Source: Cyanobacteriota bacterium
Lineage (GTDB): Bacteria > Cyanobacteriota > Cyanobacteriia > CACIAM-69d
Direction of reading: 5' to 3'
Assembly (NCBI GenBank): GCA_022402445.1
Contig: JAKRSF010000006.1
Coordinates: forward strand, 398,540 to 462,539
DNA length: 64,000 nt
The notes below the pieces were generated by a model. The model was not told the DNA's origin. It saw only the letters and a list, made by a program, of their open reading frames with translations, and made no database searches. A program made the position numbers and the translations under genes. Every line of letters starts with the position of its first letter. The stretch's first letter is position 1. Shown here piece after piece: positions 1 to 52,162 of the stretch.

Positions 1-816
1 AAGATCAGCTACGGGGCGTTTTCGGGGCATCTTTTGGCGTTTGCCTAGGATGGTTTTGTAATCGTTCCCCGAGAATACGTGATCCTTTTCCGACCAAGTA
101 AATGCCAGTTCCTCAAATGAATCATTTTGGATTGAAAGCACCTTAGTAAAGAATGATTTGGCGTCTGTTTTTGACTTAGCGAAATACGACAATTGATAGC
201 CGTTTACTTTGTCGTAGTAGGTAGCTTTTCCTGTTCCCCGTTCTAATTTATAGCCTACGAATAAATTTGCGATTTCGCGGGCAATTGATCTTAATTCTGT
301 TTCGGTTACCTGTTCAATGTCTTTTCTGTATCGAACGTTAATGGTCGAATGAACTGGCTGGCGTCCCATGTTTCGAGCCGATGATTTTAGCTCCCTAAAG
401 TACAGTTCAATCTGCGGATAGATTGTAATTGTGTTATGAAAATCCGTGTAGGGGATTCCATAAAACGAGTCGGGAACATTAAGCTTGACGTAGTTATTGA
501 AGATAGTTGCCTTGAGAAGCGCAATAGATACGCTTTCGTCAGGATCAAAAAAACAAAGCCTTGCTAATTTTTCCCTTGCGTTTTTGGGTATTGGTTCACG
601 TCGATTAGGGTCTGTACTTTTCAGGTACTCATCATACTTATCTAGAAATTCCTTTGAATCCCTCATTGCTTGCCTTACAAGCCTGTTGTGGACTGAACCA
701 AACTCGTTAATTAATCGGGCATTGCCTACACTCGATCTAGATGTAGGTCCGGCTTGAGAATCTGGATTACCTAGGGGATTCTCGTTAACGATATCCTGCT
801 TTTTTTTGGGTGCCAT
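1..816 (-). CDS. Unrecognised protein, homologue of the E2 gene at 45735-46568 (3' end missing)
   Basis: An open frame runs leftwards from an ATG at 816 (protein begins MAPKKKQDIV) to the window edge, giving 272 codons without a stop. An in-frame TGA lies four codons upstream, so this is the first possible ATG. It is clearly related to the 277-residue E2 protein. Residues YGIPYTDF, then PQIELYFRE, match YGIPTTAF and PQVMLYFKE at equal spacing; later NGYQLSYFAKS matches KGYQLQILARS, and ILGKRQKMPRKRPVADL matches ILGNSERLPRRRAVADV. In both elements the gene directly follows the ~1,200-residue giant protein. Function unknown; a structural or assembly partner of the giant protein is an inference. 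The E2 homologue is 277 residues and the matching part already extends to its residue ~245, so little should be missing unless E1 has an extension. Confidence 0.85.
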   Translation of the reverse strand, partial: MAPKKKQDIVNENPLGNPDSQAGPTSRSSVGNARLINEFGSVHNRLVRQAMRDSKEFLDKYDEYLKSTDPNRREPIPKNAREKLARLCFFDPDESVSIALLKATIFNNYVKLNVPDSFYGIPYTDFHNTITIYPQIELYFRELKSSARNMGRQPVHSTINVRYRKDIEQVTETELRSIAREIANLFVGYKLERGTGKATYYDKVNGYQLSYFAKSKTDAKSFFTKVLSIQNDSFEELAFTWSEKDHVFSGNDYKTILGKRQKMPRKRPVADL

Positions 817-830
817 GGCCTTGGGTCAGA

Positions 831-867
831 TGTAATTTACATTTGTAATAAACATTTGTTTATTACA
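831..867. repeat. TGT-W5-ACA dyad cluster A (3 sites)
   Basis: Three 11-bp dyads begin at 831, 844 and 857, exactly 13 bp apart with TT spacers. They fill the gap between the giant-protein gene and the leftward gene starting at 816, so they lie just upstream of that gene. They look like binding sites for a dimeric regulator or segregation protein. Confidence 0.85.
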
Positions 868-873
868 TTTTGC

Positions 874-3800
874 CTAGGGGGTAGGCTCATCGTCCTCATC
901 CCCAAACGTCTTTAACTCAACCTGTGCAAAGTCGCTGTCGGGGAATGAGTTCTTACGTCCAATAAATTCCGCTTGCTGGAATTTTAATGCAGCCTCAGCA
1001 CGGGCCTCTAGTAGCTCTTTTTGTGCGTCCGCAATTTCCTTGGCCCCGTTCTGGACTTCTTTGACCGCAGTAGCTACCGATGTCATCACCTCAAAAGCGT
1101 CTTGCACGTTTTGAAGTGTGCTGGTAAATGTCCTGATCTTGCCCGTATAAGAAAGGGTTTCAAAGACACGTTCATCCATCCAATCGTAGGCATTTTGAGG
1201 CACTACAGCCGCAGCCTTTAACCCATTGCCGATTCGACCCGTGTACGTGCCAATAACTCCCACGCTATCAAACAGAGAATTAAAGGCATTGTTAATAGCG
1301 CTTAGGGCGTTGGCTTGAGCTTGATAGATTCTATTGGCAGCAGCTAGGGTGATCTTTGTCTGTTCCCATTTCTCAGCCCCCAACAGTCGATCCATCAATG
1401 CCTCAAAGTTTTGATTGATGATGTCATTAAAATCAATCGCACTGTCATCAGGGTCTTTTAACGATAAAGCCTCTCTAGCGATGTCTACTACGGTGCTAAT
1501 CAAATCAATGGCGGTCTCTTTGATGTCCACCGATAGCATTACGCCGTTATGAATACTCATCGCTGTGCCAATGGCGTTAAAGATGTGAACCAACCCTAGG
1601 GTATTAAAGATTGAATTGACCCTAGTAGTTAATCCAATAGGTTGACCAAATAAGCCCCTGATAGGCTTGCCAACAGCAGTCTTTACCGAATCAGGGTTAG
1701 TGACCAATGCGCCAGACAACCCATTAGGAATGGGACCGGGTTCCCCAATGCGTCGCAAAATCTCAGCATCTTGGAATCGGCATGACGTGGGGCCGTTCGG
1801 AGACAGAACCGTATCCTTAGTCTTTGATGTGTCAGCTTTGATGGAATTGAGCAACTGGAAGACGCCAGCTAGGCCCGCCGTAACGCCAGCTAGGACGATC
1901 CCTGGCATGATGAAACGTATCATTTGCTCAATAGCCCCCATGGTGGAGTTATCGAGCTTCACACCCCCCTTAACGGTCGCTTCAGTAGCCTGTGCCGCTA
2001 CGCTTGCGTCTTTGCTGGCTTTTTCCCCAGACTTAGCGGCGGCGGTAGCTTCATTTAGCTTTGTCTCGATGGAACTTAACCGTCCGTCGGCCCTATCGGC
2101 TTGCGCGATTGTCCTGTCTAAGTCTCTATTGATGTCATATACAACCTGAGCGTTTAAGTCTTGACGGTTTTTAATGCCAGCTATTTCTGTAAGCGTCCTT
2201 ACTGCATCGGCTTTTAATCCGCTCAATACGTTTCTTGTTTCAGTGGCAAATTGAGCGATTGAATTATTCGTGTTTTGCACTGACGCATTAACCTGTGCAA
2301 TGCCAAGGCTTACGACACTCTGGACTGCACTAGGAATACCCGCAATTTGTCTGGACAGATTGGTTTGAACATTCAAGAGGTTTGTGTTAACGCTCTGAAC
2401 CAAGCTGCCTAGGTTCGATTGGATGTTAACAATAGTTTGATTGACTTGACTGGTTACATTGGCAGATTGATTGCTTACGTGTTGCCGAACCTCGCTAAAC
2501 TTGGCGTCAAGGCTTGCGGGGATATTTGCAATTTGACTATTAAGAGAACTGAGACGATTACCTAGCGATGCAATGTTTTGATTGGTGTCTTTGATTTCTG
2601 CCCTAATAAATCCCAGTAGTTGATTAATCATGGTTTGAATTAAGGACGATTGAGCATTAATCATCCCTTGGACTACGCCGTTTTGTGCGCCTAACTCTTG
2701 ACGCAATTGCTGCAAAGTAAGCATCGTTTTAATCTGGGCGATAATTTCATTAATCTTGACTTGCGCGGCTTGTAAGCCAGCGTCAAACTTAGCTTGAGCA
2801 TCCCTAACTTGTTTGGTTAACTCATTGCGAAGTTGGCCGACCTTGGTATCAAATGCCCTACTTAAATCATTGATCTTTTTGTCAATCATTCCCGGAATTT
2901 GCTTGATCTGAGATTGCAAGTCACGGATATAGTCCCCTTGCGTTTTATTCTCAGACGAAAGACGCTTAGTCTCATTAAAAAGCTTAGTGATGTCAGATTT
3001 AACCGATTCGATTCCACGTCTGACCGTTTCAAGTGCAGACTTTAACGCTGTTGTTTCTTTAGCGTTTGTTTCGATTTTCCTTTCGGCTGCATCTAGCTCC
3101 CTAGCGGTTGCATCTAGTTTTTTGGCCGTATCCGATGATTGCTTCTTAGTCGCATCTAGCTCTTTTTTGGATGCAGCCAAATCGCGTTTAATCGCAGCAT
3201 CTTCTTTTTTTGATGCTTCACTAGCGGCCTTAACCTCTTTTTTGGCCGATTCTACTTTGACTTCTACGCTTTTAATGGTGCGTTCAACTGTAACAAACCT
3301 AGGGATGATTTGAGTAAGCTTAATCGCAGGGGCACCACCACCCCCTTTAATAAGGGTTAGCTGGTTAAAGATTTGAGTGAATGATTTATCTTGCATTGCG
3401 TTGGCTTTTTCAAGCGTGTCAATGCGCCTAGACATCACATCAAAAGTCTTTTTATTAATAAATTCACTTAGAACCCTGTCAGCGAACGAAACAGCAGCCA
3501 AGATATTGCTGGCTTTAGATGCCAGGGTAAGCAATGGCTTAGATGCTTCTACAAGCTTTTTAACTGCGGGTTGTGACTTGATTACGTCCCCTAATTGACT
3601 TAGTTGACGCTTGAACGGCAAAAAGTCCTTAATATCTTTTTGAAGTACCCCTACAGTTCTTTTAATCGCGGGTACGTCTTTGATCGCAGTATTGACCCTT
3701 GTGGTAGTGGTTTTGACTGTGTTACTTAGATTCGTGAATCCTTTGTTTAAATTGTCGGCGACTTTTTTGGTTGATTGTGCCGTTCTATTTACTTCATTCA

Positions 3801-4548
3801 TTCTTTTGTTGAATGCAGCCATTTCGGCTTGACGCTTTCTAAAGTCGCTCGATAATTGCTCTACCTTGCGTCTATCGGCGGCTGCATTCTTGGGCAATTG
3901 CCGCAACGGTCCAATTTCACGGTTAAGTGTTTTTTCAACCGCTACAGCTTTTTTGTTGCTGGCATCGGCTAGAGCCTTGGCAGCCCGTGCCTGTGTTTCG
4001 GCTTGCTGTGCCTTGGCTTTAGCTGCATCAATCCCCCTGATTTGTCCTTTAACCCTGTCTACTTGCGCTCTGATTTGTTGCTGGTACTGTCGCGACTGGG
4101 TTCTGATTCCATTAATGCCGTCAGTGTTCGCCCGAATACGGCTATTAAGCCTGCCCTGTTCAGAGCGCAATGAATTATAGGAAGACTGCGCTTTTTTAGA
4201 TGTTTCTCTGGCTTCACTACTTAAGTTAAAGCTTCTTTCTAGGGACGCCCTTAGATTCCGTGTACCATTGGATCCCATCACGGACGTGTACCCAAACATT
4301 CCCACAACAATCAACGCTAGGGGACCATTGCCGCTAAGTGCTTCTTTGACCCATTGAATAACCTTCTTTTTGTCTAATTCATCTTTTCCCAGTCCCGCTG
4401 CTTTTTCAGCGATATCTAATGCTTCATCTGCGATTCCCCTAACTTTAAACATTTCACTTTGCAATCCCTTGGTTTCCTTTTGGATTTCCAAAAGCAAAGC
4501 CATGATTTCGCTACAGCTAGATTCAGTTTCAGGGGGTTGAGTAGTCAT
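874..4548 (-). CDS. Giant coiled-coil membrane protein of E1, 1224 aa
   Basis: Not a family I recognise. Residues about 70-90 and 880-905 are hydrophobic and look like membrane segments. Nearly everything between is heptad-rich coiled coil (Lys/Ala/Glu-rich to about 600, then Asn/Gln/Ser-rich), as in phage tape-measure or spike proteins. The last ~195 residues align with the end of the E2 giant protein (42145-45735) without a gap for about 95 residues: shared LKD-x-D-x2-ID, NRIYQA, RIGN-x-LK and NAY-x-WM fall at identical spacing. The ATG at 4548 overlaps the stop of the preceding gene, so the two are translationally coupled. It sits fourth in a leftward operon from 6458. A length-determining or envelope-spanning structural role is inferred from shape only. 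Confidence 0.85.
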   Translation of the reverse strand: MTTQPPETESSCSEIMALLLEIQKETKGLQSEMFKVRGIADEALDIAEKAAGLGKDELDKKKVIQWVKEALSGNGPLALIVVGMFGYTSVMGSNGTRNLRASLERSFNLSSEARETSKKAQSSYNSLRSEQGRLNSRIRANTDGINGIRTQSRQYQQQIRAQVDRVKGQIRGIDAAKAKAQQAETQARAAKALADASNKKAVAVEKTLNREIGPLRQLPKNAAADRRKVEQLSSDFRKRQAEMAAFNKRMNEVNRTAQSTKKVADNLNKGFTNLSNTVKTTTTRVNTAIKDVPAIKRTVGVLQKDIKDFLPFKRQLSQLGDVIKSQPAVKKLVEASKPLLTLASKASNILAAVSFADRVLSEFINKKTFDVMSRRIDTLEKANAMQDKSFTQIFNQLTLIKGGGGAPAIKLTQIIPRFVTVERTIKSVEVKVESAKKEVKAASEASKKEDAAIKRDLAASKKELDATKKQSSDTAKKLDATARELDAAERKIETNAKETTALKSALETVRRGIESVKSDITKLFNETKRLSSENKTQGDYIRDLQSQIKQIPGMIDKKINDLSRAFDTKVGQLRNELTKQVRDAQAKFDAGLQAAQVKINEIIAQIKTMLTLQQLRQELGAQNGVVQGMINAQSSLIQTMINQLLGFIRAEIKDTNQNIASLGNRLSSLNSQIANIPASLDAKFSEVRQHVSNQSANVTSQVNQTIVNIQSNLGSLVQSVNTNLLNVQTNLSRQIAGIPSAVQSVVSLGIAQVNASVQNTNNSIAQFATETRNVLSGLKADAVRTLTEIAGIKNRQDLNAQVVYDINRDLDRTIAQADRADGRLSSIETKLNEATAAAKSGEKASKDASVAAQATEATVKGGVKLDNSTMGAIEQMIRFIMPGIVLAGVTAGLAGVFQLLNSIKADTSKTKDTVLSPNGPTSCRFQDAEILRRIGEPGPIPNGLSGALVTNPDSVKTAVGKPIRGLFGQPIGLTTRVNSIFNTLGLVHIFNAIGTAMSIHNGVMLSVDIKETAIDLISTVVDIAREALSLKDPDDSAIDFNDIINQNFEALMDRLLGAEKWEQTKITLAAANRIYQAQANALSAINNAFNSLFDSVGVIGTYTGRIGNGLKAAAVVPQNAYDWMDERVFETLSYTGKIRTFTSTLQNVQDAFEVMTSVATAVKEVQNGAKEIADAQKELLEARAEAALKFQQAEFIGRKNSFPDSDFAQVELKTFGDEDDEPTP

Positions 4549-5216
4549 TAGAGTCTTTTGGGAATTTTGATGTTACCGAGAATTGATCGAGACTTGCCTA
4601 CCACCTCAGCACAAGGGAGACAACACCATCCTAGTTCTGCATTTTTGGTTACCGGGTCTTTCCAGCAAATGCCATAATTTTGGGGGCAATATCTAATCGG
4701 GTAAAATGAAAATGAAAACTTAGCTATTTCTGCATCAAATGTGGACGGTGAATAAAAGGCACTGGCAAATGTTCCTAGGGTTATGGTTCCATCTTTTGTT
4801 AATTCTCTCCCCTCCCATACCCTTGACCTATGGACTTCTACGACAGAACCACAATTACGGTTAGAGTCAATCTGAGTTAGATTTGCGTAAAAGTATCCAT
4901 CATTGGGATCCCAAAACACTCGATTAACATTGCCGTTGCATTCTTCAAAGTAAATAAAATTGAATCCCTGTTCTGATACCGGCCCCCAGTGACGTTTAAC
5001 GGTATACCAGCTAGTCCAACTTGTAGGAGTGTACCTAGAATAGCCAAACCTAATCCCATAGCCCCCATTGCTTGATACAGTTACCTGTTGGGTTCTGTCT
5101 TCTTTAAAAGAAACGGAAACTACGCCAAACGGAGTAGAAGCGCTAAAGGTTTTTTCGATATTCCCTTGCCGAACGATTTCTACCCTTGATCTTTGGTGTG
5201 GTTCAAATCTAAGCAT
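4548..5216 (-). CDS. Unrecognised Cys-containing beta-rich protein, 222 aa
   Basis: Family not recognised. The middle is rich in Tyr, Trp, Thr and Ser in alternating patterns suggestive of beta strands, and the C-terminal third has a cysteine cluster (YCPQNYGIC, then GWCCLPC) that could bind metal or form disulfides. Residues GYGIR followed by TPTSWTSWYTVK and later ECNGN resemble GFGIR, SWFTVK and DCNGV inside the E2 giant protein at about 43,620-43,770, so this separate gene corresponds to an internal domain there. Start and stop each overlap the neighbouring gene (5216 and 4548), so it forms a tight unit with them. Probably a structural partner of the giant protein. Confidence 0.8.
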   Translation of the reverse strand: MLRFEPHQRSRVEIVRQGNIEKTFSASTPFGVVSVSFKEDRTQQVTVSSNGGYGIRFGYSRYTPTSWTSWYTVKRHWGPVSEQGFNFIYFEECNGNVNRVFWDPNDGYFYANLTQIDSNRNCGSVVEVHRSRVWEGRELTKDGTITLGTFASAFYSPSTFDAEIAKFSFSFYPIRYCPQNYGICWKDPVTKNAELGWCCLPCAEVVGKSRSILGNIKIPKRL

Positions 5217-6082
5217 TAGGATTGCTTTGTGAATTTGATTGAATAAAATCGACTCATGGGGCTACAGACAATTCTAATGGTCATATTTGAGACATCCCTA
5301 GATATAATTACTTCTCCCTTTGCTATGTCCCTGCCCCCAAACTTTTGACGAAACAATTCATCAGTGCAAACGCGCGAAATGCTACCAGCGCTTGACGTTT
5401 CTTGCAAATAATGGCGTTGTTGTGTTTCTAAGGTTATTTGGGTGATTCTTTGACTTGCAGCATCAGAATAATAATCAACCTCGACAGTAAACTTACCCCT
5501 AGCCGTACTTAGGCCGGGAAACAATACCGGTACGGCCCCAACCCCAAACATAATCATTTGACCGTTTGTCTGGTTTCCGGCATACGTGTGTTCAATGTAT
5601 TCATCATTAATCAATGTCCCAAGGTAGTAACCATTCATGGAGTTTGCTGTTAGGTAATCCGCAAGCTGCTTTGCAGTCACAAAGTAGTCAGGTTGATTGC
5701 CGTATGACACAGGGGAGACTACTGCGGTCGTTTGGCTATAGAGAGTCAAGGTTAACTTGTTTTCAAAATAGGTTTTTCCATTAAAGCTAACCTCAGATTG
5801 ACGGCCCTTATCGACTCGAAAATTAAATGCTTCTGGACTAGGGCTATCCCCGGTGATTGATTGAATCTGACTCAACAAAGCAACCAAAAATGATGCAATG
5901 TTGGGGCACCATGCCTTATTCCAGCCAGGTAACAAAAGTAAATCAATCAATAGTTTTGAGCCATCGAAGGTAATTCCGTTGGCTGGGGTCAGTGCTGTGG
6001 GGTAAACTTCCTGACCGGCCACCATTTGACGGGAATTAACAAGAGCAATGTAATTAGGGTCAGTGGGAGATGAGTACGTCAT
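5216..6082 (-). CDS. Unrecognised beta-rich protein, 288 aa
   Basis: No family recognised. The first ~120 residues show the order short strand, leucine-rich helix (ASFLVALLSQIQSI), then two strands ending in NKLTLTLYSQT. The small neighbour at 6117-6458 and two E2 proteins (41832-42134, 46706-47056) show the same order. The rest alternates polar and hydrophobic residues as in beta sandwiches and ends in RFYSIKFTKQS. There is no signal peptide or membrane segment. It is second in the leftward operon, with 34 bp to the previous gene and a stop that overlaps the next start. A tail, tip or fibre-type structural protein is plausible but unproven. Confidence 0.75.
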   Translation of the reverse strand: MTYSSPTDPNYIALVNSRQMVAGQEVYPTALTPANGITFDGSKLLIDLLLLPGWNKAWCPNIASFLVALLSQIQSITGDSPSPEAFNFRVDKGRQSEVSFNGKTYFENKLTLTLYSQTTAVVSPVSYGNQPDYFVTAKQLADYLTANSMNGYYLGTLINDEYIEHTYAGNQTNGQMIMFGVGAVPVLFPGLSTARGKFTVEVDYYSDAASQRITQITLETQQRHYLQETSSAGSISRVCTDELFRQKFGGRDIAKGEVIISRDVSNMTIRIVCSPMSRFYSIKFTKQS

Positions 6083-6116
6083 TGGTTCTACCAGTCAGGG
6101 TTTACTTTTGGATTAA

Positions 6117-6458
6117 TTAGGGTGCGTAGCTATCGGGGGTAATCGACGGGATAGATTGAGGTGTGTAGAAGCTGATGCCGATGTTCACCGTATCCCAATT
6201 AACCGTGACACCTTCAGAATTAATCGTTGAATCAGTTCCTTTAGATGGCTCGGTTAGGGTTACTGATACTTGATCATTGGTTTCTCGAATGGATTCAGGA
6301 TAGATAGGTTGAAGCATTTTAATAATTGCCGCCACAACGCAATCGAGATTATCGAAGTTAGTCGTAGATAAACCGACTTGAGTTAGGGCGCTTGCGGGAA
6401 TAAGAACGCCGTCCACATCAGAGGACCAACCAGCGACGGATAGCGGTAGTTCAGACAT
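6117..6458 (-). CDS. Small unrecognised structural-like protein, 113 aa
   Basis: First gene of the leftward operon. The sequence has a strand region (VLIPASALTQVGL), a hydrophobic helix (LDCVVAAIIKMLQPIYP) and two beta strands near the end (VSVTLTEPS and VNIGISFY). The E2 protein at 41832-42134 has a comparable IPSS...LAVWAITGLQYMYP and sits at the matching place upstream of its giant protein, so the two are likely distant homologues. No enzyme motif is visible. A pair of TGT-W5-ACA dyads lies in the divergent gap upstream (6570-6593), so the operon is probably controlled with the rightward genes. Confidence 0.75.
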   Translation of the reverse strand: MSELPLSVAGWSSDVDGVLIPASALTQVGLSTTNFDNLDCVVAAIIKMLQPIYPESIRETNDQVSVTLTEPSKGTDSTINSEGVTVNWDTVNIGISFYTPQSIPSITPDSYAP

Positions 6459-6747: not shown

Positions 6748-7101
6748 ATGACAACTACTACGACCGTTTCGACCAAAACCTATTACGTTGAATCCGCTGG
6801 GGGTGGATACATTTCGTTCCGTGGCTCTACCAAGGTGTTCGCAGGAGTGGGAACCCTTTTGGGTTGGAGCGAAACGCCCCCCGCCGACAAAATTGAAGCT
6901 GCACGGGGCGCAGTTCCCAAGATTGTCATCTCCATGTACAACGAAACCTCGAAGCGTGGGCGAAGCGCTCGCGTGTACATCGACCCGAGTAAGCTTGAAG
7001 AGGCAATCGGTGCAACCGGGGATGCTTCCCTTAAGGGGAAAACTATTGATGGCTTTACGGTACGGCGAGCCTACACCCCCCGCCGTCGGGTTTACGTCTA
7101 G
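6748..7101 (+). CDS. Unrecognised 117-aa protein, candidate abundant structural subunit
   Basis: Opens with MTTTTTVSTKTYYV and continues with alternating patterns typical of beta structure. It ends in a basic tail (RRAYTPRRRVYV) that could contact DNA or acidic partners. The gene is visibly richer in C/G-ending codons than its AT-rich neighbours, which may reflect selection for high expression. It has a long 5' region with a hairpin and two dyads, and it is the first of three short rightward genes before a terminator. No homologue is evident in E2; the 180-residue protein at 47135 has a vaguely similar basic end but does not align. A major coat or sheath protein, or a DNA-binding protein, are the main alternatives. 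Confidence 0.75.
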   Translation: MTTTTTVSTKTYYVESAGGGYISFRGSTKVFAGVGTLLGWSETPPADKIEAARGAVPKIVISMYNETSKRGRSARVYIDPSKLEEAIGATGDASLKGKTIDGFTVRRAYTPRRRVYV

Positions 7102-10678: not shown

Positions 10679-10869
10679 TGATTTTCTACAAATCTGAGAT
10701 ACGCGAGGACGTATGGTGTGGGGTCAATCGATGGGGGGAGACTCCTAAGGTGTTGATTGAGAAAGTAGACAGGAATAATTACCTTGTCTATGCCCCTGGC
10801 AAGAATGGAACCGTCAACACAACATCATTGGCACAAGCCAAAAGTGAAGGGGAGAAGTTAATCGGATGA
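10678..10869 (+). CDS. Unrecognised 63-aa protein
   Basis: Begins MIFYKSEIREDVWCG. Short beta-rich sequence with an Ala/Lys helix at the end (LAQAKSEGEKLIG). Start and stop overlap both neighbours. No family recognised. Confidence 0.55.
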   Translation: MIFYKSEIREDVWCGVNRWGETPKVLIEKVDRNNYLVYAPGKNGTVNTTSLAQAKSEGEKLIG

Positions 10870-11207
10870 GTGAATTAAAACGGGTTCATTGGTCTGAGTT
10901 GCACGGCAATCCATTGCTAGCTAAGCTTCACCCCCAAATGATTCAATCTACCTTTTTCGACACCAAAATCGCGGTATTGAAGGGGCAAGGGACTAAGAAT
11001 GGTGGGGCAATCAAACAACAGGTAGTTGTTGCCTACGATTCAACATTCGTGATGGCTAAGTTGAGTGCTACATTAATACCTCTTAAGGTGTTGGGTAGGG
11101 CAAGGCTTGAGAAGCTATTGAGTGATGTGGTGACGTTTATTTTCACCGATGAGAATCATTCTCATTCTGAGTCTAATATGGGGGAAGATTCCAATGAAGG
11201 GGAATAA
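10866..11207 (+). CDS. Unrecognised 113-aa protein
   Basis: Begins MSELKRVHWSELHGNPLLAK. The central part (QQVVVAYDSTFVMAKLSATL) is beta-like, followed by a helix and an acidic Ser/His tail. It overlaps the nuclease-like gene by 14 bp, so it may act with it. No known motif. Confidence 0.55.
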   Translation: MSELKRVHWSELHGNPLLAKLHPQMIQSTFFDTKIAVLKGQGTKNGGAIKQQVVVAYDSTFVMAKLSATLIPLKVLGRARLEKLLSDVVTFIFTDENHSHSESNMGEDSNEGE

Positions 11208-12611: not shown

Positions 12612-13838
12612 ATGCTCAACGCCAAAGAAGACGACGATGGCAAGGTGTCCATCCTGGGTGATCCGGTCCTGGCTCAAGCCCATGATGAGTTCGTGCCCCC
12701 TACGCCCAAAGCCTATGGCAACCGTATCGACTTTCAATTACTTCGATCACTGGGTAACGATGACGAACAATCATTCAATCCCGAATTACCCCTACACGTA
12801 AACCTGGAAAACGCGCTAGGACGGTGCGTAACCATCCATGAACCCGCTAGGCAATTGCCCATTATTAAGGCATTCCTATTGCTGCCATCGGCCCTAATCA
12901 ACATCGCGCCCATAGGCATCGCCCTAGGGCCATCCGGGTCAGGTAAATCGACATTGTGCAAGGTAGCCGCCGAACTTCATCGGGTCCAAATCCTCGCAGC
13001 ATCATCGACCTATGCCGCAGTGCGAAACCAGGTAAATACGTCCCGCTGGTTTGATGAAGAGTGTGTGTACGAGCGCCATACGATGCTCGTTTTTGATGAT
13101 CTGAAAGAACACGCATTCAACCCCGATCTATTCACGTTGTTTCGGTGTGGATACGACCGAGCTACGGAAACCATTGCCATCGCAACCGAGGGAGGTAAAA
13201 ACCTAGAGTTTAAATCATTCTGCCCTAAGCTTTTCTCAACCGTGAGTCAATTCCCGTTTGATTCCAAGTACGAGGAATTACTGAGGCGGTCATTGGTTTT
13301 CTTTTTCCAAAAGGATGAGAGTCAGAGGGAGTATGATGACCCATCCGATATCGGATGGAATGAGTACAGTGAAGCATTTCGTAAGAAATGGGAGGATAAC
13401 CAAAACTGCTTGCAATTTATTGAGCTTCTGAAAGGATTCAAGTCTAAACCCAAAGGGTTGAATCATTCTCAGTGGAAAATTAGCCGCCCATTGGTTGCGT
13501 CTTTGATCGCCAATGAAATCGCCCCAAACTATTTAACGGCGATTGGATTGATTAAAGAGTATTGGGCGGGGATGGTTCCTCCCAAATCACCTCTATTCCA
13601 AATTCTTGTGGATGTAATAGCGTCTCAGCGGACGGCATGGGAACAGAACCTAGAGCATGGGTATGTTGGCCCTTTCGAGATATCGCCCAAACTTGTAAAA
13701 GACGCCGTTGCACTCGCTGAATCATTGGGGCAGCTTGATCGACGTATTCAACCCCACGAAATACGCGATGAAATGGCGGCGCTGGGATGGACGCTAAAGA
13801 AAGGTGACGGGGGTGAGATCAAATGGCTAAACGATTAG
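12612..13838 (+). CDS. P-loop AAA-type ATPase, candidate replication helicase/initiator, 408 aa
   Basis: Walker A is GPSGSGKST at about residues 106-114 and Walker B is MLVFDD at 158-163. An arginine pair in ELLRRSLVFFF is placed where AAA+ and superfamily 3 helicases carry an arginine finger. The N-terminal ~90 residues are unassigned; the last ~60 (ISPKLVKDAVALAESLG and after) look like a winged-helix DNA-binding domain. Such proteins replicate phages and plasmids. No primase domain is attached. It is the only large enzyme in this part of E1 and overlaps the zinc-ribbon gene by 16 bp. The precise family is uncertain. Confidence 0.7.
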   Translation: MLNAKEDDDGKVSILGDPVLAQAHDEFVPPTPKAYGNRIDFQLLRSLGNDDEQSFNPELPLHVNLENALGRCVTIHEPARQLPIIKAFLLLPSALINIAPIGIALGPSGSGKSTLCKVAAELHRVQILAASSTYAAVRNQVNTSRWFDEECVYERHTMLVFDDLKEHAFNPDLFTLFRCGYDRATETIAIATEGGKNLEFKSFCPKLFSTVSQFPFDSKYEELLRRSLVFFFQKDESQREYDDPSDIGWNEYSEAFRKKWEDNQNCLQFIELLKGFKSKPKGLNHSQWKISRPLVASLIANEIAPNYLTAIGLIKEYWAGMVPPKSPLFQILVDVIASQRTAWEQNLEHGYVGPFEISPKLVKDAVALAESLGQLDRRIQPHEIRDEMAALGWTLKKGDGGEIKWLND

Positions 13839-15319: not shown

Positions 15320-15384
15320 TTCAGGGATTCAGTCTACAACCCTTGGTAAGGGTGAGGTCACGAGTTCAATCCTCGTCAGAGGCT
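15320..15384 (+). other. tRNA 3'-half remnant, candidate attachment-site scar
   Basis: From an anticodon-loop-like TTCAGGG the sequence continues with a long variable arm (ACCCTT and AAGGGT pair) and a perfect T-arm (ACGAG, loop with GTTCAATCC, CTCGT at 15360-15376), then a 7-nt acceptor-like CAGAGGC and T. No matching 5' acceptor (GCCTCTG) or D-arm lies upstream, so this is not a complete tRNA. A class II tRNA (Leu or Ser type) is indicated. It lies where composition switches from E1 to HIP1-rich host DNA, as expected when an element integrates into a tRNA gene and displaces its 3' part. Confidence 0.6.
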
Positions 15385-15493
15385 CTCGCCAATGACCCTG
15401 CTTTCCGGGTTGATCTTTTGTAGATAGGCCGGTGGGCTTGGGTTTCAGCCGCTGACTGGTTGTCCAGCCCAGCCTAAGTGATGCTCGACGATG

Positions 15494-40799: not shown

Positions 40800-41372
40800 C
40801 TAGAGAGCATCGACCGCCGCCTGAAGCACCGCCGCCCCCACGTCCACATACCGGGCCAGGTTTGCAATCGAGCGGTGCCCGGTCAGTTCTTGAACCACCC
40901 GGAGCGAATATCCCTTACTCACCAGTTCAGTGCAGAACCCCCGGCGGGCAGAGTAGAGCGAGTAACCCCGGTTTTCCAAATTGCTGCGAGCGATCGCCCG
41001 CCTGAATGCCCGATCCATGGCACGGAGCCCCAAAGGCTGAGAGCGATCACGCGGTGAAGGAAAAAGCCAGCCGTCATCGGGCACCGGCAGCGCCTGTAGG
41101 AATGGAGCCAGCCCCGACGAGACAGGCACGGTTCTCGATCGCCCATCTTTTCGGTGCTGGCCCGGAAATGTGATGGAGGGCAGCACCCGGCGGGGGGCAG
41201 CGGATCCAAACACATCACCCACCCGCAATTTTAGGACTGCAGAGGGGCGTTCCCCGGTGTACCACGCGATCGCCCAGAAGAGCCGATGGGCGTCGGAACG
41301 GAAACCGCCGTAGATTTGCCGAAAACTTTTGGCATTGCACGGCGTAGCTTGACCATTTCTCTGATTCTTCAA
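40800..41372 (-). CDS. Tyrosine recombinase catalytic domain, 190 aa
   Basis: Only the catalytic half is present. TGERPSAVLKLRVGDV contains the first Arg, YSLYSARRGFCTELV the second Arg with Tyr-Ser replacing the usual His-x-Leu, and LTGHRSIANLARYVDV the box II His and the nucleophile-like Tyr. A core-binding N-terminal domain is lacking. The short form could still be active, as in some small integrases, or a relic. It lies at the edge of E2, pointing outwards, as element integrases often do. Confidence 0.8.
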   Translation of the reverse strand: MKNQRNGQATPCNAKSFRQIYGGFRSDAHRLFWAIAWYTGERPSAVLKLRVGDVFGSAAPRRVLPSITFPGQHRKDGRSRTVPVSSGLAPFLQALPVPDDGWLFPSPRDRSQPLGLRAMDRAFRRAIARSNLENRGYSLYSARRGFCTELVSKGYSLRVVQELTGHRSIANLARYVDVGAAVLQAAVDAL

Positions 41373-41562: not shown

Positions 41563-41835
41563 ATGGATCCCGTCCCGCAAATCACTGAACTATCCCCCCT
41601 GCCCGAGCAGTTTGGCGAAATCCGCCGACAGTTTTTTGCGATCGTCGAAATGGTGACGGCCACCGCCGTCGGGCCACACCAGCGAACGGATTACCTGCTA
41701 GACCTAGCCAACCAAACAGACGCCCTGGCTACTGCCGCCGTTCTCCAAAGCCAGAAACTGCGGGCCATCCATGACGCGATTGAACGTTTGAACCAATCCA
41801 ATACCCCTACCAGTCCTACCGGAGACGATGAATGA
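41563..41835 (+). CDS. Unrecognised 90-aa protein, first gene of the E2 operon
   Basis: Helical throughout (EQFGEIRRQFFAIVEMVTATA, LDLANQTDALATAAVLQSQ), with a disordered Thr/Ser/Pro end. Four-base overlap with the next gene. The ~190 bp upstream are AT-rich for this region and probably hold the operon promoter. No family recognised. Confidence 0.65.
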   Translation: MDPVPQITELSPLPEQFGEIRRQFFAIVEMVTATAVGPHQRTDYLLDLANQTDALATAAVLQSQKLRAIHDAIERLNQSNTPTSPTGDDE

Positions 41836-42134
41836 CCGCTTTTACCACCAGCCAGATCCCGTCATCGGTTGACACACTCGAAAAATTGGCAGTGTGGGCG
41901 ATCACGGGTTTGCAGTACATGTACCCCACCGCCGTGAGCGAAGAGGGCGAGGGGTTCGTCGAAAAAGCTGTAACCAGCAACAGCTATTACATCCAGAGTG
42001 CCAACCGTCATGCGTTTTTGGGGCGCGTGTCCCTTGGCCTGAGTCCTGATCGCGTTGTGGGGGGTGCAAAGCACTGGACCTATGCCCTGAATCTGGGGAC
42101 CGACCCGCTACCCGTGATTTTCACCACCAACTAG
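41832..42134 (+). CDS. Small structural-like protein, 100 aa
   Basis: Has IPSSVDTLEKLAVWAITGLQYMYP followed by strands (AFLGRVSLGLS, HWTYALNLGTD). This resembles the E1 protein at 6117-6458 (IPASALTQV, then VVAAIIKMLQPIYP), and both stand upstream of the giant-protein gene. I treat them as distant homologues. Only 10 bp separate it from the giant-protein gene. Confidence 0.7.
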   Translation: MTAFTTSQIPSSVDTLEKLAVWAITGLQYMYPTAVSEEGEGFVEKAVTSNSYYIQSANRHAFLGRVSLGLSPDRVVGGAKHWTYALNLGTDPLPVIFTTN

Positions 42135-42144
42135 GCCCCGCCCT

Positions 42145-45100
42145 ATGCCAGGTTTTGCCCCCATCCCTGATCCATGGGAAGTTCCGCTCAGCAATACGCC
42201 GGGAGTCCCCATCGAGGAGGGGGAGGGGAGTACACCTGGAAATTCACCCCCCACCCCCGACCCCTGGCGATCGCAGCCGCCCCCCACAGAGCCCACCACG
42301 CCCCTAAGACAAGAGAACTATCGCGCCCCCGCCGCCACACCCCACGCACCAGCGCAAGGGCCACGCCAGCAACTCACCACATTTGACGGTAACGGGCGTC
42401 TTTTCCGCCTAGTCCGCGATGCAGAAGGGCGCGTGAGCAGCGAGGACATGGGACCAATCCCAGCGCCGCCCACAACGGCCAGAGATCCCATCGCAGTTCC
42501 CAGAAACGGATGGGATCGAGCGGCCCAGCGCGCCGCCTATCGCCCCCGCGATCCGGATTTGTTGCGGACTTACCTTAATCTCTCAGAGCAACTGAATAGG
42601 AACCTTGTCAGCGAGACGGATCCAAACCCCTTCATTCCAGAAGGGAGCGCGAGATATCGGCCTACCGTCGCTGACACATTCCGGCAAATCGTGCAGCAGG
42701 ATCACGCTCTTTGGGAAAGGGGAGTTAACCAAAATTTTCGTGATCTAGAGCGCCAAGCGCAGATCAGAAACCTCGAATCAGCCTTTAACCTGCCCGCCAA
42801 CGGAACCCGATCAGACCCGCGACAGATTGCCAGCATTCGTCACCGACTCGAAAGAACCTTATACGACGAGGGACTGATGGGCGGGCTGGCCAGACAACCA
42901 CCCCGGCCCCCGCTGGCTACGCAGGGAGGAGCCCCACCAACGGCCGCCCGCCCCCGCCCTGCAACACCACAAGGAAGCGTATCCAGCCGTGCCAGTGGCG
43001 CGACACCTGGCGGACGCCCTACCAGCGGCGGCGGAAGCCCCGGAGGCAGTAACCAGGGCAACCTACGGCCCGCCGGTGCCCCCACCTCAGTAGCGGCCCC
43101 GCCCGGTCAAACCACCGCCCGCGTAGTCGCCGGGGGGACCGCCGTGCGACCGTCCGGCGTCAGGCCAGCGGCCCCGTTTGCCAGCCTGCCCCCGGTGGAG
43201 GCCGCCAACCGTCTGTTGGGATTTATCCCGCCCGTCGTACAGCGGCGGATCCTTCCCGCCCTTGGCGGCCTGGGGACGATCGTCGGCACTGGCGGCGACG
43301 TACTGCGAGGGCGCGGCCCCCTGGGAATCCTCGGGAACAATGTCGGGGGATGGGGCGGCGGTGCCCTTGGCGCAGCCGGTGGGGCATTTCTTGCGGGGCC
43401 GGTCGGCGGCGTCCTCGGGGGCGTCGGTGGCGGTGCCCTTGGCGGGGGGATTCTTGGAAAGTTGGGAGATGCCCTAGATGGCCTATTCGGGAATGCCCCG
43501 GTTCTCAATTCGTTGCCGTTATTCCCCCCAAAACCTAACGGGAGAACAGCCGGATCACCCACCCTAAAAAATTTCGACGAGCCAGACATCGACTACATCG
43601 ACGACGTTCCCAACCCTGGACGCGGATTCGGCATCAGAGTTAGGGACGTGGCGGGTAGTACCACCCCCACCCCCGGCCAAATATCCTTCGGGTCATGGTT
43701 CACGGTTAAGTCCTACGCGATCCGCATCAACGAAGCGCTGAACCATCGCTTTATTTGGGGGACAGACTGCAATGGGGTAGAGCAAGCCCTGTTTGACCTG
43801 GATTTTTACGAGAACCAGGACTACACCCGCTCGATCGAAATCACATCCAGCCGATCGTGCCCTGGGGAGCCGGAAACCATCACGCAATCGGGGACAGAGC
43901 CGGGGCGACGGCGACAGGGTAACGGAGCCACCCGCACCGGCCCGCGATCATTCCCCCCGGCCACCCCCCAAACCGGCCCCGGTCAATTTCCCAATTTCGC
44001 CCCAGCAGGTCAATCACCCGATCGCTACGGCAATCCCAGAGGAGGGGAGGGGAATGCCCCCAGCAGCCCCCAGCAGGTGCCCAGCACCAACCCCATCAAA
44101 CCGGGAACCGGCGACGGATCACCGGCCCCGGCACCGCCCGCCGTGAAGCCCGCGCCGCCGGACGCCCGCGCCCCCCTGGCAGATCCGCAAAATCGGCCCA
44201 AGAATCCGCAGCCGGACAATCTGGACAATCCCAACGGCAACCCAGGGCGATCGCCCGCCACGGCCCCCGCCAAAAAGGATGCACCGGGGGCCGGGATTCA
44301 GTTCGATGCGATGGGGCTGCCCATTGGCCGCGCCCGCAGTGGCGTTCATGCCCGCGAGAACACCGGCAACGTCATCGAACCCAAGCAATCGGGCTTTACC
44401 AACTTCGGGAACGGGGTGCGGATTCCCAACGAGCTTCTCGGCAGCGAGGAAGCCCGGAAGTATTACACCGATCTGGCCAAGGCCCTAGGGACGCCAGGGG
44501 CACCACTTCCCGACATGCCCCAGAAGTTGCGGGATAAACTCAACGCCCCCAGCTCGAGTACCAGCACCACCACGCGCCCCACCACGAGACCGGGGGAAAC
44601 CGTCACCAGCGATCGCCCGCTGATTTTGCCCATTCCCGCGCCCCAGAAGATCACCAGTTCCGACCGCCGTCCCATTCAGGACCGGCAGACGTCTCCCTTT
44701 GACGCGCCCGCCAACCCCAGCCCCAGCGCCGCCGGGAGTCCCTGCACCAGCCGATGCAGCACAGGCATCGACGCAGGGGTTAGGCAAGCCAACGAAAAAT
44801 TAGACCGTCTCACATCGGGGAACGCCGTCGCCGCCGGGTCCGGCGTTGCCCAGGGGGCCGACTTGATCGCCCTCAATCAAGTGCTGGCGAATCAGCGGCA
44901 AATGCTCAATTGGATGGGGCCAACACCCCCGACGCTGAAGGGAGCCGCACCCGGAATGGGCGGATTCATACAGCGATTTTTCGACACGGTTCTTAACAAT
45001 CAGATCGTCCAGACCACCGTCAATTGGCTAACGTTTTTCGTGGTGTTCAATAACGCCATGATGTTGGGCCGCAACGTCGTAGAGACGGTTGGCGACCTGA

Positions 45101-45735
45101 TGACGCTGAGCTTAGAAGCGTTCCGCCGACAGTTTGGCCTGAAGGACCGTGAGGACGAAATGATCGACGTGAATGAGGCGGTCAGGAAGGGGTTTGATCT
45201 ATGGATGGTGTCCCTGTTGGGGCGAGATCAATATCAAGCGCTGTTGGCGAAATGGATCCAGTTCAACCGCATTTATCAGGCGGGGGCTCAAATTCTCTAC
45301 AACGTGCGATCGCTGTTCGACGGCAGCCGCGCAATCTTAGAACTGCTGGCGACCAATGTGGCGCGGATCGGTAATGCCCTCAAAAATAGCCGGATCGTCA
45401 ACGGCAACGCCTACCCATGGATGGCTGAAAACGTCAGCGCCCTTACGGCCCGCTGGCAGCGGATGTATCAGGCGATCGAGAACGTGGAAAACACCGCTAG
45501 CGTTCTATCAGGCATTTCCGGCGAGGTCATCAACATCCAGGACGAAGCCGCCGAGTTGGCCGAGTCTAAGCAACGGTTTGAGGAGGCCCTCGACCAGGGG
45601 CAGCGGTTGCTTGACCCCGAAGGTAAGCCAAAACCGGGGGATAACAAGCCGATTCAGGCGCTGGAGGACGCAAAGCGCCGCGTTTCCGAAGCCGGAGATA
45701 TTCCAGTGCAGCAGTTTTTTAGAGGTGGGGATTAA
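42145..45735 (+). CDS. Giant multidomain membrane protein of E2, 1196 aa
   Basis: Order along the chain: a Pro-rich N terminus; a helical region about 120-240; a Gly/Pro/Ser linker; a glycine-zipper hydrophobic stretch at about 390-450 (GGALGAAGGAFLAGPVGGV); a beta domain at about 490-580 (GFGIR, SWFTVK, DCNGV) resembling the separate 222-residue E1 protein; a long Pro/Asn/Gly linker; a membrane-like helix (VNWLTFFVVFNNAMML) near 960; and a ~195-residue end aligned without gap to the E1 giant protein (LKDREDEMID, NRIYQA, RIGNALK, NAYPWM). It ends by overlapping the next gene. Function unknown; a pore, tether or spike role is inferred. Confidence 0.85.
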   Translation: MPGFAPIPDPWEVPLSNTPGVPIEEGEGSTPGNSPPTPDPWRSQPPPTEPTTPLRQENYRAPAATPHAPAQGPRQQLTTFDGNGRLFRLVRDAEGRVSSEDMGPIPAPPTTARDPIAVPRNGWDRAAQRAAYRPRDPDLLRTYLNLSEQLNRNLVSETDPNPFIPEGSARYRPTVADTFRQIVQQDHALWERGVNQNFRDLERQAQIRNLESAFNLPANGTRSDPRQIASIRHRLERTLYDEGLMGGLARQPPRPPLATQGGAPPTAARPRPATPQGSVSSRASGATPGGRPTSGGGSPGGSNQGNLRPAGAPTSVAAPPGQTTARVVAGGTAVRPSGVRPAAPFASLPPVEAANRLLGFIPPVVQRRILPALGGLGTIVGTGGDVLRGRGPLGILGNNVGGWGGGALGAAGGAFLAGPVGGVLGGVGGGALGGGILGKLGDALDGLFGNAPVLNSLPLFPPKPNGRTAGSPTLKNFDEPDIDYIDDVPNPGRGFGIRVRDVAGSTTPTPGQISFGSWFTVKSYAIRINEALNHRFIWGTDCNGVEQALFDLDFYENQDYTRSIEITSSRSCPGEPETITQSGTEPGRRRQGNGATRTGPRSFPPATPQTGPGQFPNFAPAGQSPDRYGNPRGGEGNAPSSPQQVPSTNPIKPGTGDGSPAPAPPAVKPAPPDARAPLADPQNRPKNPQPDNLDNPNGNPGRSPATAPAKKDAPGAGIQFDAMGLPIGRARSGVHARENTGNVIEPKQSGFTNFGNGVRIPNELLGSEEARKYYTDLAKALGTPGAPLPDMPQKLRDKLNAPSSSTSTTTRPTTRPGETVTSDRPLILPIPAPQKITSSDRRPIQDRQTSPFDAPANPSPSAAGSPCTSRCSTGIDAGVRQANEKLDRLTSGNAVAAGSGVAQGADLIALNQVLANQRQMLNWMGPTPPTLKGAAPGMGGFIQRFFDTVLNNQIVQTTVNWLTFFVVFNNAMMLGRNVVETVGDLMTLSLEAFRRQFGLKDREDEMIDVNEAVRKGFDLWMVSLLGRDQYQALLAKWIQFNRIYQAGAQILYNVRSLFDGSRAILELLATNVARIGNALKNSRIVNGNAYPWMAENVSALTARWQRMYQAIENVENTASVLSGISGEVINIQDEAAELAESKQRFEEALDQGQRLLDPEGKPKPGDNKPIQALEDAKRRVSEAGDIPVQQFFRGGD

Positions 45736-46568
45736 TGCCGTTACCCCCTGCGTTTTCACCCACTGAACACCTACAGGACGCCGTAAAACGGCTCTACAAC
45801 CGTCAGGTTGCGAACCATTTTCGCGACTTAGGCCCGGAAGATTGGCCCCTAGACATCAGCTCCCCCCGATCATCCCTGCGGACGGCTTGCACCCACCAGG
45901 AGCAAGACACCGCAATCATGAGCTTGATGAGGATGTGGCTGTTCGATCTGACGGTGCGGCGGGAGGAACTGACGGACCCGCCGATCTACGGAATCCCAAC
46001 GACGGCGTTTCAGGCGGAGCGCAAGTTTAGGCCGCAAGTCATGCTGTATTTCAAGGAAGACCGGCAGGACGTGGAACCCGGATTTGAGGCGGTGGAGGGG
46101 CGGATCAGTTTCAGGATCCAGGATGAATCGACGGAATCGATCACCATGGCGAAGTTGACCCAGATCGCCCAGCGCATTAAGTCGAATTTTGCTCCAGCCG
46201 GTGGCTATATCTGGCGCAAGGGCCGGGAGATGTTCAGCTACAGCGACTGGGATAAGGGGTACCAGCTCCAGATCCTGGCCCGCTCTGATCCGGAGGCGAG
46301 GGCGTTGGTGGACAAGGTGCTGAACTGCCAAAGCCATACGCCGGATATGAGCAAGTTCAATCGCAGCACCAATGCGGCAGAGGCCAGCGCCTACCCGACC
46401 ATTCCCCCGACGCGCTCCATTTTGGGGAACTCTGAACGGTTGCCCCGGCGGCGGGCGGTGGCGGATGTGCGCTTTCAGTATGCGATCGCCCATATCCACG
46501 GGCGAAAGAAGCGGGTTTGTTTGGTGGATCTGTCCGGGCGGTTCAATGATCCCCTTGTGGCGGCCTAG
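45735..46568 (+). CDS. Partner protein of the giant protein, 277 aa
   Basis: Homologue of the E1 gene at 1-816 (YGIPTTAF, PQVMLYFKE, KGYQLQILARS, LPRRRAVADV), in the same position after the giant protein. Mixed alpha/beta composition, many Arg and Gln, no membrane segment or signal peptide. Start and stop of the pair overlap by one base, so expression is coupled. Conservation of the pair in two divergent elements argues that the two proteins act together. Confidence 0.85.
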   Translation: MPLPPAFSPTEHLQDAVKRLYNRQVANHFRDLGPEDWPLDISSPRSSLRTACTHQEQDTAIMSLMRMWLFDLTVRREELTDPPIYGIPTTAFQAERKFRPQVMLYFKEDRQDVEPGFEAVEGRISFRIQDESTESITMAKLTQIAQRIKSNFAPAGGYIWRKGREMFSYSDWDKGYQLQILARSDPEARALVDKVLNCQSHTPDMSKFNRSTNAAEASAYPTIPPTRSILGNSERLPRRRAVADVRFQYAIAHIHGRKKRVCLVDLSGRFNDPLVAA

Positions 46569-46705
46569 GCCCGCGCGATCGCCCCAGGGCAGCCCCAGGG
46601 CCGCCGTTTGATCCATGAAAGGTTTAACCGTTTCCGCCGCGAATATACCCCCAGAGGGCGGATAGGTTGGGGTCAAATCAACACACCCCTGGAGACCCGG
46701 CCCCC

Positions 46706-47056
46706 ATGGCACTGGTAGACGAACTCAAAGCAACCCTGACTGTTGCAAGCCTTGACGACGGCAGCGGCAACCTACGGATCCCGCTGGCGGCCCTGGGCGT
46801 ACAGGACGCGGCCACCAGCCCGATCACCGATGAGCAATTGATCGACGCGATGTTTGGCCTGTTGGCGGGCCTATCGACAGCCCAGACGGCCCACAACCAA
46901 TCGGCACCGGAGGGGACGCGGATCAATTCCTTCACGTTCTCCCCGAGCACCAGCCTGCAAACCGACGGCCAGGGCGACACCTTCAGCGATCGCAACTTCA
47001 CGGTGCGGTTCCGGCAGTACATGCAGCCGAGCGACCTGGCCGCCGTGCTGTCCTAA
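46706..47056 (+). CDS. Small structural-like protein, 116 aa
   Basis: The ATG at 46706 (MALVDELKATLTVAS) is chosen; an earlier frame start at 46667 adds a Pro-rich stretch. Has LRIPLAALGV, a leucine-rich helix (LIDAMFGLLAGLSTAQ) and two strands (INSFTFSPSTSL, NFTVRFRQYM), the same order as in the small proteins at 6117 and 41832. Its abundance or location is unknown. It begins a second group of genes after a ~137-bp gap. Confidence 0.7.
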   Translation: MALVDELKATLTVASLDDGSGNLRIPLAALGVQDAATSPITDEQLIDAMFGLLAGLSTAQTAHNQSAPEGTRINSFTFSPSTSLQTDGQGDTFSDRNFTVRFRQYMQPSDLAAVLS

Positions 47057-47134
47057 GCAGCCCTCGCATGAGATGGGCGATCGCCCGCGATCGCCCCCGG
47101 TTCATTTTTCCTCCAGTCCCCAACCTAAAAAAAC

Positions 47135-47677
47135 ATGAGACGCCGACGCTTTAACCGAATCAAAGAAGTCATTCGCAAGGGAGAAGCCGCCGCGAAGTCG
47201 TTGCCCTACATCCAAAAGTATTTGGAAGTTGTGGACGGCACCCGCAAAATTACCCGTGGGGCCGCCTCGATCCCCGATCTGCAAGGGCGGCAGTATTTCA
47301 CCCTGAAACCCTTTGGGCTGCCCGCCACTGCCAATGACACTGTTGTCTGGATGACGGGGCGAGCCAACACGGAACGGAACACCTTTGGCCTGACCAATGA
47401 CGTTCTCAACCTTGACCCCGACGGGGCGGGACGCTCTGATGCGGGGCTCTTGCCCGCCAAAGCGGTAGTTTCCCGGTGGTCCACCTCATCGGACAAAATC
47501 TCAGATATCACCGGCCTGACCTATAAAAAGCGCAACGCTTCCACCTACACTTGCCCGTTTGGGAAAACTGGCACAGAGAACGAATTTGATGTGCAAGAGG
47601 AGATCTTCCAAGCGGTGCGGGGCAGTGGCGACAACCGGGGGGTGACCTTCAAGCCCGAGCGCATGTATGCCAGCTAA
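47135..47677 (+). CDS. Unrecognised 180-aa protein with basic N terminus
   Basis: Starts MRRRRFNRIKEVIRKGEAAA, a strongly basic helix that could touch DNA or membranes, then a beta-rich part (RQYFTLKPFGLPATANDTVV) with polar Thr/Asn/Asp loops. No signal peptide. It overlaps the next gene by 11 bp. Candidate coat-like or tail protein by character only. Confidence 0.65.
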   Translation: MRRRRFNRIKEVIRKGEAAAKSLPYIQKYLEVVDGTRKITRGAASIPDLQGRQYFTLKPFGLPATANDTVVWMTGRANTERNTFGLTNDVLNLDPDGAGRSDAGLLPAKAVVSRWSTSSDKISDITGLTYKKRNASTYTCPFGKTGTENEFDVQEEIFQAVRGSGDNRGVTFKPERMYAS

Positions 47678-47933
47678 CCCCGTCTGGTTAGACCCGATTG
47701 AATCGGCATTGAGGCCCGAGATCGCAGTGATCGACGGCCTCACCGATGCTGAGATCAGGGCGGAACTGGAGCGTTTGCATCAAGTCAATCTGGCGATTGA
47801 TGGGCTGCTTTATGGCGACGACGATCCCGATATGTTTCTGGACAAAATAGAAACTTTTCTAGAGCAATCCCCCGAGGATTATCTAGGTGCGGCTATCGAG
47901 AACTGCGAAGAAATAGGGTTGATTCTGCCATGA
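47667..47933 (+). CDS. Unrecognised acidic 88-aa protein
   Basis: Short, acidic, helical (LTDAEIRAELERLHQVN, YGDDDPDMFLDKIETFL). Overlaps both neighbours. Could be a chaperone for the basic protein before it, but nothing in the sequence proves this. Confidence 0.6.
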   Translation: MPANPVWLDPIESALRPEIAVIDGLTDAEIRAELERLHQVNLAIDGLLYGDDDPDMFLDKIETFLEQSPEDYLGAAIENCEEIGLILP

Positions 47934-48481: not shown

Positions 48482-48518
48482 CGCTCCATTCTGCAATGTT
48501 CTTTAGTGGTATTTTCCC

Positions 48519-51754: not shown

Positions 51755-51916
51755 TTATTCAATTGGGGCATCGCCCAGGTCATCGGGCGGTTCCACTAAG
51801 GCCACATTCGCTTCCCAATCGGCCAAAACCTGTTTCAAGTCCTCAATCTGGGATTCAAACAGCGCACGGCGGGCCTGGATTCGCTCGACCTCGCGATCGC
51901 AATCTTCAAGTTGCAA
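51755..51916 (-). CDS. Small coiled-coil protein, ~53 aa
   Basis: Reading on from just after the RHH gene stop gives LEDCDREVERIQARRALFE, a clear coiled coil, ending PPDDLGDAPIE. No ATG is present; the TTG at 51916 is the best candidate, and a CTG overlapping the RHH stop codon is another. Probably coupled to the RHH gene. Confidence 0.45.
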   Translation of the reverse strand: MQLEDCDREVERIQARRALFESQIEDLKQVLADWEANVALVEPPDDLGDAPIE

Positions 51917-51930
51917 CTGAACAGAGGCGA

Positions 51931-52131: not shown

Positions 52132-52162
52132 TGTTCACCTCATCCATATACACGCCCCAATC

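Follow-up and report, generated by a model that had tools for sequence, protein, structure and literature searches.

A 64,000-nucleotide stretch of the genome of a Cyanobacteriota bacterium (GenBank assembly GCA_022402445.1, contig JAKRSF010000006.1, positions 398,540 to 462,539; hereafter the window) was found to carry two elements, E1 and E2, each bearing a gene module built around a giant protein (Table 1). A first-pass annotation had proposed that divergent copies of one module lie in the two elements, and this was confirmed: a C-terminal domain is common to both giants (BLASTP 2e-23, 29% identity over 206 residues) and includes the gap-free stretch already noted, running for about 97 residues from LKD to NAYxWM, and the genes which follow the giants are also homologous (BLASTP 2e-20, 29% identity). 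The middles of the giants differ as had been described, being coiled coil in E1 and rich in proline and glycine (Pro/Gly-rich), with a glycine zipper, in E2, and the reported difference in HIP1 content was likewise observed, with 0 sites in all of E1, 1.7/kb in E2 and 3.7/kb in the chromosome between the elements. The small proteins said to precede both giants (6117-6458 and 41832-42134) are present, but they belong to two separate families between which homology was undetectable. A profile search of the same genome returned exactly two copies of the module, E1 and E2, and no third copy of the module genes.

The limits of both elements had to be redrawn. E1, previously placed at 1-6458, is a 17,951-bp insertion in a transfer RNA (tRNA) gene, tRNA-Thr, and begins 2,612 bp before the left edge of the window, ending at window position 15386. 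It is bounded by 48-bp repeats of the 3' part of tRNA-Thr, with copies at 15388-15435 of L003 (the DNA left of the window, used to complete E1) and at window 15339-15386; its GC content is 0.44-0.48, compared with at least 0.58 in the flanks, and its left end encodes a recombinase of 378 amino acids (aa) with a weak Pfam Phage_integrase match (3.7e-4) and an integrase profile match of 1e-26. E2, a second, diverged element previously placed at 41563-48881, covers at least the stretch between 40800 and about 52153, since other elements encode relatives of the proteins at 50629-51399 and 51755-52153. A DNA or attachment repeat bounding E2 was searched for and not found. Just right of E2, at 54403-55605, an IS110-like transposase of a family also present in other loci was recognised by eye, and it may have deleted the right end of the element.

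Table 1. Features of elements E1 and E2 (window coordinates unless stated)
Element	Coordinates	Strand	Feature	Remarks
E1	1-816	-	p272-family protein	309 aa whole, L003 17887-18816; 113 bp past window edge; homologous to 45735-46568; profile match
E1	874-4548	-	Giant stalk protein, 1224 aa, coiled-coil type	Conserved C-terminal domain
E1	4548-5216	-	Cys-rich protein, p217 type	C-terminal CCxPC motif; hhalign E 3.5e-5 across Cys motif
E1	5216-6082	-	288-aa late-operon protein	No relatives found; similarity to s109 not significant
E1	6117-6458	-	Small alpha/beta protein, s109 family	Family always with coiled or collagen stalks
E1	6748-7101	+	117-aa small basic protein	No significant match; by eye like p180-slot proteins of other elements, judged from position and composition
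E1	10866-11207	+	Early-arm protein	Common to duplicated G189 element, tblastn 2e-9
E1	12612-13838	+	P-loop ATPase, probable replication helicase	Weak Pfam PF00910; tblastn 2e-39 to G189 element
E1	15339-15386	+	attR, 48-bp copy of tRNA-Thr 3' part	Partner copy 2,612 bp left of window
E2	40800-41372	-	190-aa catalytic-domain tyrosine recombinase	Divergent from module; Pfam Phage_integrase 1.3e-17; same place and strand in 44/46 relatives
E2	41563-41835	+	90-aa protein	No relatives found
E2	41832-42134	+	Small protein, E2_100 family	Always with Pro/Gly-rich stalks; family in 31 loci
E2	42145-45735	+	Giant stalk protein, 1196 aa, Pro/Gly-rich, glycine zipper	Conserved C-terminal domain
E2	45735-46568	+	p272-family protein, 277 aa	AlphaFold pLDDT (predicted local distance difference test) 89, no known fold
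E2	46667-47056	+	129-aa small protein after p272	No relatives found
E2	47135-47677	+	p180-family protein	Profile p179/p180 in 73 loci; AlphaFold pLDDT 91, no known fold
E2	47667-47933	+	p88-family protein	Family in 66 loci
E2	47930-48481	+	183-aa protein in p161 position	Single relative, L063, 46% identity; placed by position
E2	48519-48881	+	120-aa protein, coiled coil and membrane helix	Membrane-coil protein position
E2	49062-50255	+	Gly-rich fibre-like protein, probable appendage	phrog_1589 8.7e-11 (no known function); Pfam ALK_LTK_GRD 5e-7
E2	50629-51399	-	Other arm, 256-aa protein	Relatives in other elements, tblastn 1e-5
E2	51755-52153	-	Other arm, 132-aa protein	Relative in G033 element (L063), tblastn 4e-19

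Relatives of the module were sought in 386 cyanobacterial genomes with a p272 profile, which matched 26 of them (about 7%), several with two or three copies. A wider scan of 84,980 species used two motifs from the C terminus of the giant, and reaches only giants which bear these motifs; it returned 78 loci, every one in Cyanobacteria, mostly in Nostocales and also in Leptolyngbyaceae, Oculatella, Aphanothece, Spirulinaceae and others. So far the module is known only from Cyanobacteria. Its usual order was a divergent recombinase of about 190 aa, s109 or E2_100, the Cys-rich p217, the giant, p272, p180, p88, p161 and a membrane-coil protein (present in 45 loci), with the small recombinases lying upstream of the module and divergent from it in 44 of 46 cases. 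The module was constant across elements whose replication genes differ. Members of the p217 family (L098 7957-8607 and relatives, alignment A9) have five invariant cysteines and a YPGYCCxxC motif in a Cys-rich domain; a p217-like domain suspected by eye within the E2 giant was rejected (hhalign E 0.64). Membership of s109 was unsupported for both the E1 288-aa and the E2 129-aa protein (E about 0.04-0.05), and Phi92 gp135 was rejected as an s109 relative (E 0.69).

The giant and p272 genes were tightly coupled. Among the loci with at least 4.5 kb on either side, p272 was the next gene after the giant, on the same strand, in all 38, with a gap of 20 bp or less in 34, and the co-occurrence of the two genes was thereby found to hold outside this genome. 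In the first set of loci, selected by p272, 29 had a detectable giant as well, and several of those without one encoded a glycine-zipper helical segment and p272 fused in one polypeptide. Distances for the giant C terminus and for p272 were correlated (Mantel r 0.45, 0 of 2000 permutations). Taken with the invariable adjacency and the fused polypeptides, this correlation suggests that the giant and p272 belong to one complex. An open reading frame at L003 17340-17927, which overlaps the end of the E1 p272 gene, resembles a GNAT-like acetyltransferase by eye.

The giants vary in length, many carry hydrophobic or glycine-zipper segments, and their middles are of three kinds, coiled coil, collagen-like and Pro/Gly-rich, with Gly-x-y repeats of the collagen-like kind in 17 typed giants. 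A typing cut-off of 0.16 Pro+Gly was chosen after the composition had been inspected, and among giants whose partner was recognised, s109 preceded each of the 49 with a coiled or collagen middle and E2_100 each of the 30 Pro/Gly-rich ones, a match in 79 of 79 typed loci; a further 7 giants had neither partner recognised. On a quick p272 tree the stalk type needed 14 changes, 11 of them forced by well-supported branches, and the block of partner plus stalk therefore appears to have been swapped repeatedly relative to p272. As the partner and stalk genes are adjacent, their linkage is most simply explained if both are exchanged together.

No signal-like N terminus was found among s109, p217, giant, p272, p180 and p161 proteins using a simple hydrophobicity rule; assembly in the cytoplasm is therefore favoured, and the lack of Sec signals argues against an ordinarily secreted filament. 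The same result bears on the proposal that the module encodes a surface fibre which benefits the host, in adhesion or aggregation, and is merely carried by mobile elements. Such cargo is distinctly unlikely: the collagen-like and lectin-like domains are typical of adhesins and replication genes vary around an unchanging module, yet signal peptides, sortase motifs and autotransporter domains were not found by the signal rule and profile scans, and the operon is compact, coupled and commonly accompanied by a recombinase and element genes. Collagen-like surface adhesins of the Scl/Lcl type share the Gly-x-y repeats, whereas the giants have neither signal peptide nor LPXTG anchor, and collagen is one of three interchangeable stalks.

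Mobility was evident both from integrated islands and from plasmids. The module is present on four complete circular plasmids of 15.6-37 kb, two of them from HT-58-2 (pHT582-1, 37 kb, and pHT582-2, 15.6 kb) and one each from Allocoleopsis PCC 7113 (pMIC7113.08, 20.8 kb) and Tolypothrix PCC 7601 (unnamed14, 20.8 kb). On pHT582-2, a 1664-aa protein (L005 9827-14821) has a YGTHF stretch which by eye is like that of MACPF pore-forming proteins. Two element copies in G189 (L158/L067 and L159/L052), each about 16 kb, lie 5.1 Mb apart and are 98% identical over 12.5 kb; the repeated ATGCTCA motifs at their ends and their different flanking direct repeats (18 and 22 bp) suggest that a 471-aa recombinase integrates the element without being strict about its target. 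The early arm of this element has an ATPase and one small protein in common with E1. At L057, 43-bp tRNA-Phe repeats enclose a complete element of 12.6 kb, which carries nine genes of the module, one gene for a lipoprotein-like product, a divergent pair of helix-turn-helix (HTH) genes, and genes for a primase/AAA_25 protein of 805 aa and an integrase of 305 aa, a layout which is phage- or satellite-like. A further 9.9 kb between 45-bp tRNA-Lys repeats (L059), with a truncated VapE-type gene (by eye) and no integrase, is probably a remnant. Inversion by the divergent small recombinase, as in phase variation, was considered and set aside, consistent inverted repeats being absent around the promoter region. 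A DNA search of the 386 genomes for host CRISPR (clustered regularly interspaced short palindromic repeat) spacers against a module returned nothing but homologues and low-complexity repeats.

A family of cyanobacterial elements which integrate and form plasmids, and which share a conserved module of several tightly coupled proteins, is well supported by these results. The elements combine recombinases with flanking repeats or multiple copies, as integrative elements do, and also show the integrase, regulators, primase/helicase and 10-20 kb tRNA island of phage-inducible chromosomal islands (PICIs). One explanation is that they are helper-dependent phage satellites which supply their own adsorption or tail-like part and depend on a tailed phage in the same cell for capsid and packaging motor, a mirror image of capsid-forming PICIs (cf-PICIs), which carry capsid genes. 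The complete tRNA-Phe element, with its divergent HTH pair, primase-helicase and integrase and no recognisable terminase, portal, capsid or packaging ATPase, fits this proposal, as do the VapE-type helicases found among the elements and the fibre-like genes; in that element, only the giant, primase-helicase and integrase are long enough for a terminase or portal. We nevertheless consider a satellite unlikely, as neither a terminase small subunit nor a capsid-redirection gene was recognised, there is no tail tube homology and no helper is known, while satellites packaged in virions should turn up in viral collections, where none does. Size, tRNA integration, VapE/primase-type replication and divergent regulators are shared with PICIs, including capsid-forming ones, from which the present elements differ in lacking capsid genes, in their unrelated stalk/fibre module and in persisting as plasmids too. 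Tycheposons of marine picocyanobacteria are tRNA-integrated elements with tyrosine recombinases and resemble the present family in these respects and in their cyanobacterial hosts; by description rather than by sequence comparison they are set apart from the module, which was met chiefly in Nostocales and in other lineages of fresh water or soil.

The Tolypothrix plasmid and 9 element loci (e.g. L153 13323-14513) encode a FtsK/HerA-like ATPase which has membrane segments at its N terminus and is a candidate DNA motor in some elements. It could serve a device in which the giant spans the envelope and the ATPase moves element DNA between neighbouring cells, and the hydrophobic or glycine-zipper segments of many giants and the membrane-coil protein would suit such a role. 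This is the least probable of the explanations considered here, however, as the proteins scanned gave no profile match to relaxase or type IV secretion genes, PLSDB types all four plasmids as non-mobilizable, and neither the complete 12.6-kb element nor E1 has the ATPase. Zot-encoding filamentous phages (inoviruses) are likewise small and integrated or episomal, but the present elements have neither Zot/pI homology nor an identified small major coat protein, and the FtsK/HerA-like ATPase occurs in a minority of loci; no protein scanned matched a Zot profile, and the E1 ATPase is replication-like.

The module proteins were compared with Pfam, NCBIfam, PADLOC and PHROGs, and with the sequences in the PDB, without any match beyond coiled coil or collagen in the giants. 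No known phage or secretion family took in the giant or p272 in the searches run, in keeping with the first-pass annotation, and no paper describing the module was found. A role in anti-phage defence was dismissed, as PADLOC gave only coiled-coil LmuB/MukB-like matches, mainly to the E1 giant. Accessory neighbours resembled phage appendages, namely an F5/8C protein (phrog tail, 6e-9), a LamG-like protein (phrog baseplate wedge, 1e-13) and a tail-fibre C-terminal domain (phrog 5e-13).

The first-pass annotation had placed the module in an undescribed cyanobacterial element family, which was upheld, and had offered a virion, a device crossing the envelope and a secreted filament as candidates for its product. 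Our preferred reading, which is tentative and falls somewhat short of an even chance, is that the module serves as late operon to an element resembling a phage or satellite and forms a cytoplasmic particle around a giant stalk, with glycan-binding fibres. E1 and E2 would be two lineages of one family of small elements (about 10-21 kb), living as tRNA islands or circular plasmids and organised into recombinase, regulators, their own primase/helicase arm and the late operon, whose products would assemble into a multi-protein particle in the cytoplasm. The giant would be the axial stalk, its length set by the variable middle (coiled coil, collagen or Pro/Gly) to which the upstream partner, s109 or E2_100, is matched, and its conserved C-terminal domain would dock with p272. 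The remaining body of the particle may consist of p180, p88, p161 and the Cys-rich p217, while variable lectin-like proteins could bind the polysaccharide coat of the host and the small membrane-coil protein could anchor or release the particle, which would most likely serve transfer of the element.

Several results weigh against this particle. No relative of the module proteins was found among 50,697 phages and none was confirmed in IMG/VR, which was scanned with short peptide patterns (the same A4 query matched 79 places in genomes); absence from these phage and viral-contig collections argues against a commonly shed virion. Terminase, portal, capsid and tail-tube homology was not found in the module with Pfam and PHROGs, most proteins being checked for tailed-phage hallmarks by sequence profiles only. 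The confident AlphaFold models of p272 and p180 had no significant match among solved structures, only the giant and p272 remain intact on pHT582-2, and the FtsK/HerA-like ATPase occurs in only some elements. The match of the E1 giant to a tape-measure family (phrog_167, 5.5e-14) falls mostly in coiled coil, and the E2 giant has none. The conserved C-terminal domain of the giant gave no significant tape-measure match. A match of the p272 model in BFVD (A0A510E869; E 8.7e-4, template modelling score 0.38, root-mean-square deviation 15) is to an unnamed protein and was set aside.

The tape-measure-like E1 giant, the fibre-like proteins and the variation in giant length would also be expected of a very divergent tailed prophage or a defective, tailocin-like tail cluster, with tube, baseplate and tape measure beyond profile detection. 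We regard this as improbable, because the p180 and p272 models gave no significant match to tail tube, Dit, baseplate or capsid structures, and the elements lack head genes yet replicate and integrate on their own. Members of Caudoviricetes resemble the elements in their tRNA attachment sites, tyrosine recombinase, regulator pair, primase/helicase and late operon with very long coiled-coil and fibre-like proteins; they differ from these elements of about 10-21 kb, in which terminase, portal, major capsid, tail tube and endolysin were not recognised and which had 0 matches in the phage records. Chiefly because complete elements are without capsid or packaging genes and viral collections hold no member, the elements are not called viruses here. 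It is rather unlikely, if somewhat less so than a satellite, that the module encodes the particle of a virus-like lineage which is specific to cyanobacteria and escapes present methods of virus detection, with an architecture of its own around a stalk protein whose middles are interchangeable, and with neither a capsid nor a terminase gene recognised.

If the particle is real, the module, whose proteins are nameless in the family libraries searched, would represent an overlooked transfer agent in one of the best-studied bacterial phyla, and the strains with complete plasmids (Tolypothrix PCC 7601, Allocoleopsis PCC 7113 and HT-58-2) allow direct testing. Outside the elements, the window also encodes a 1460-aa multi-domain PAS/GAF sensor histidine kinase, recognised by eye at 58980-63362.

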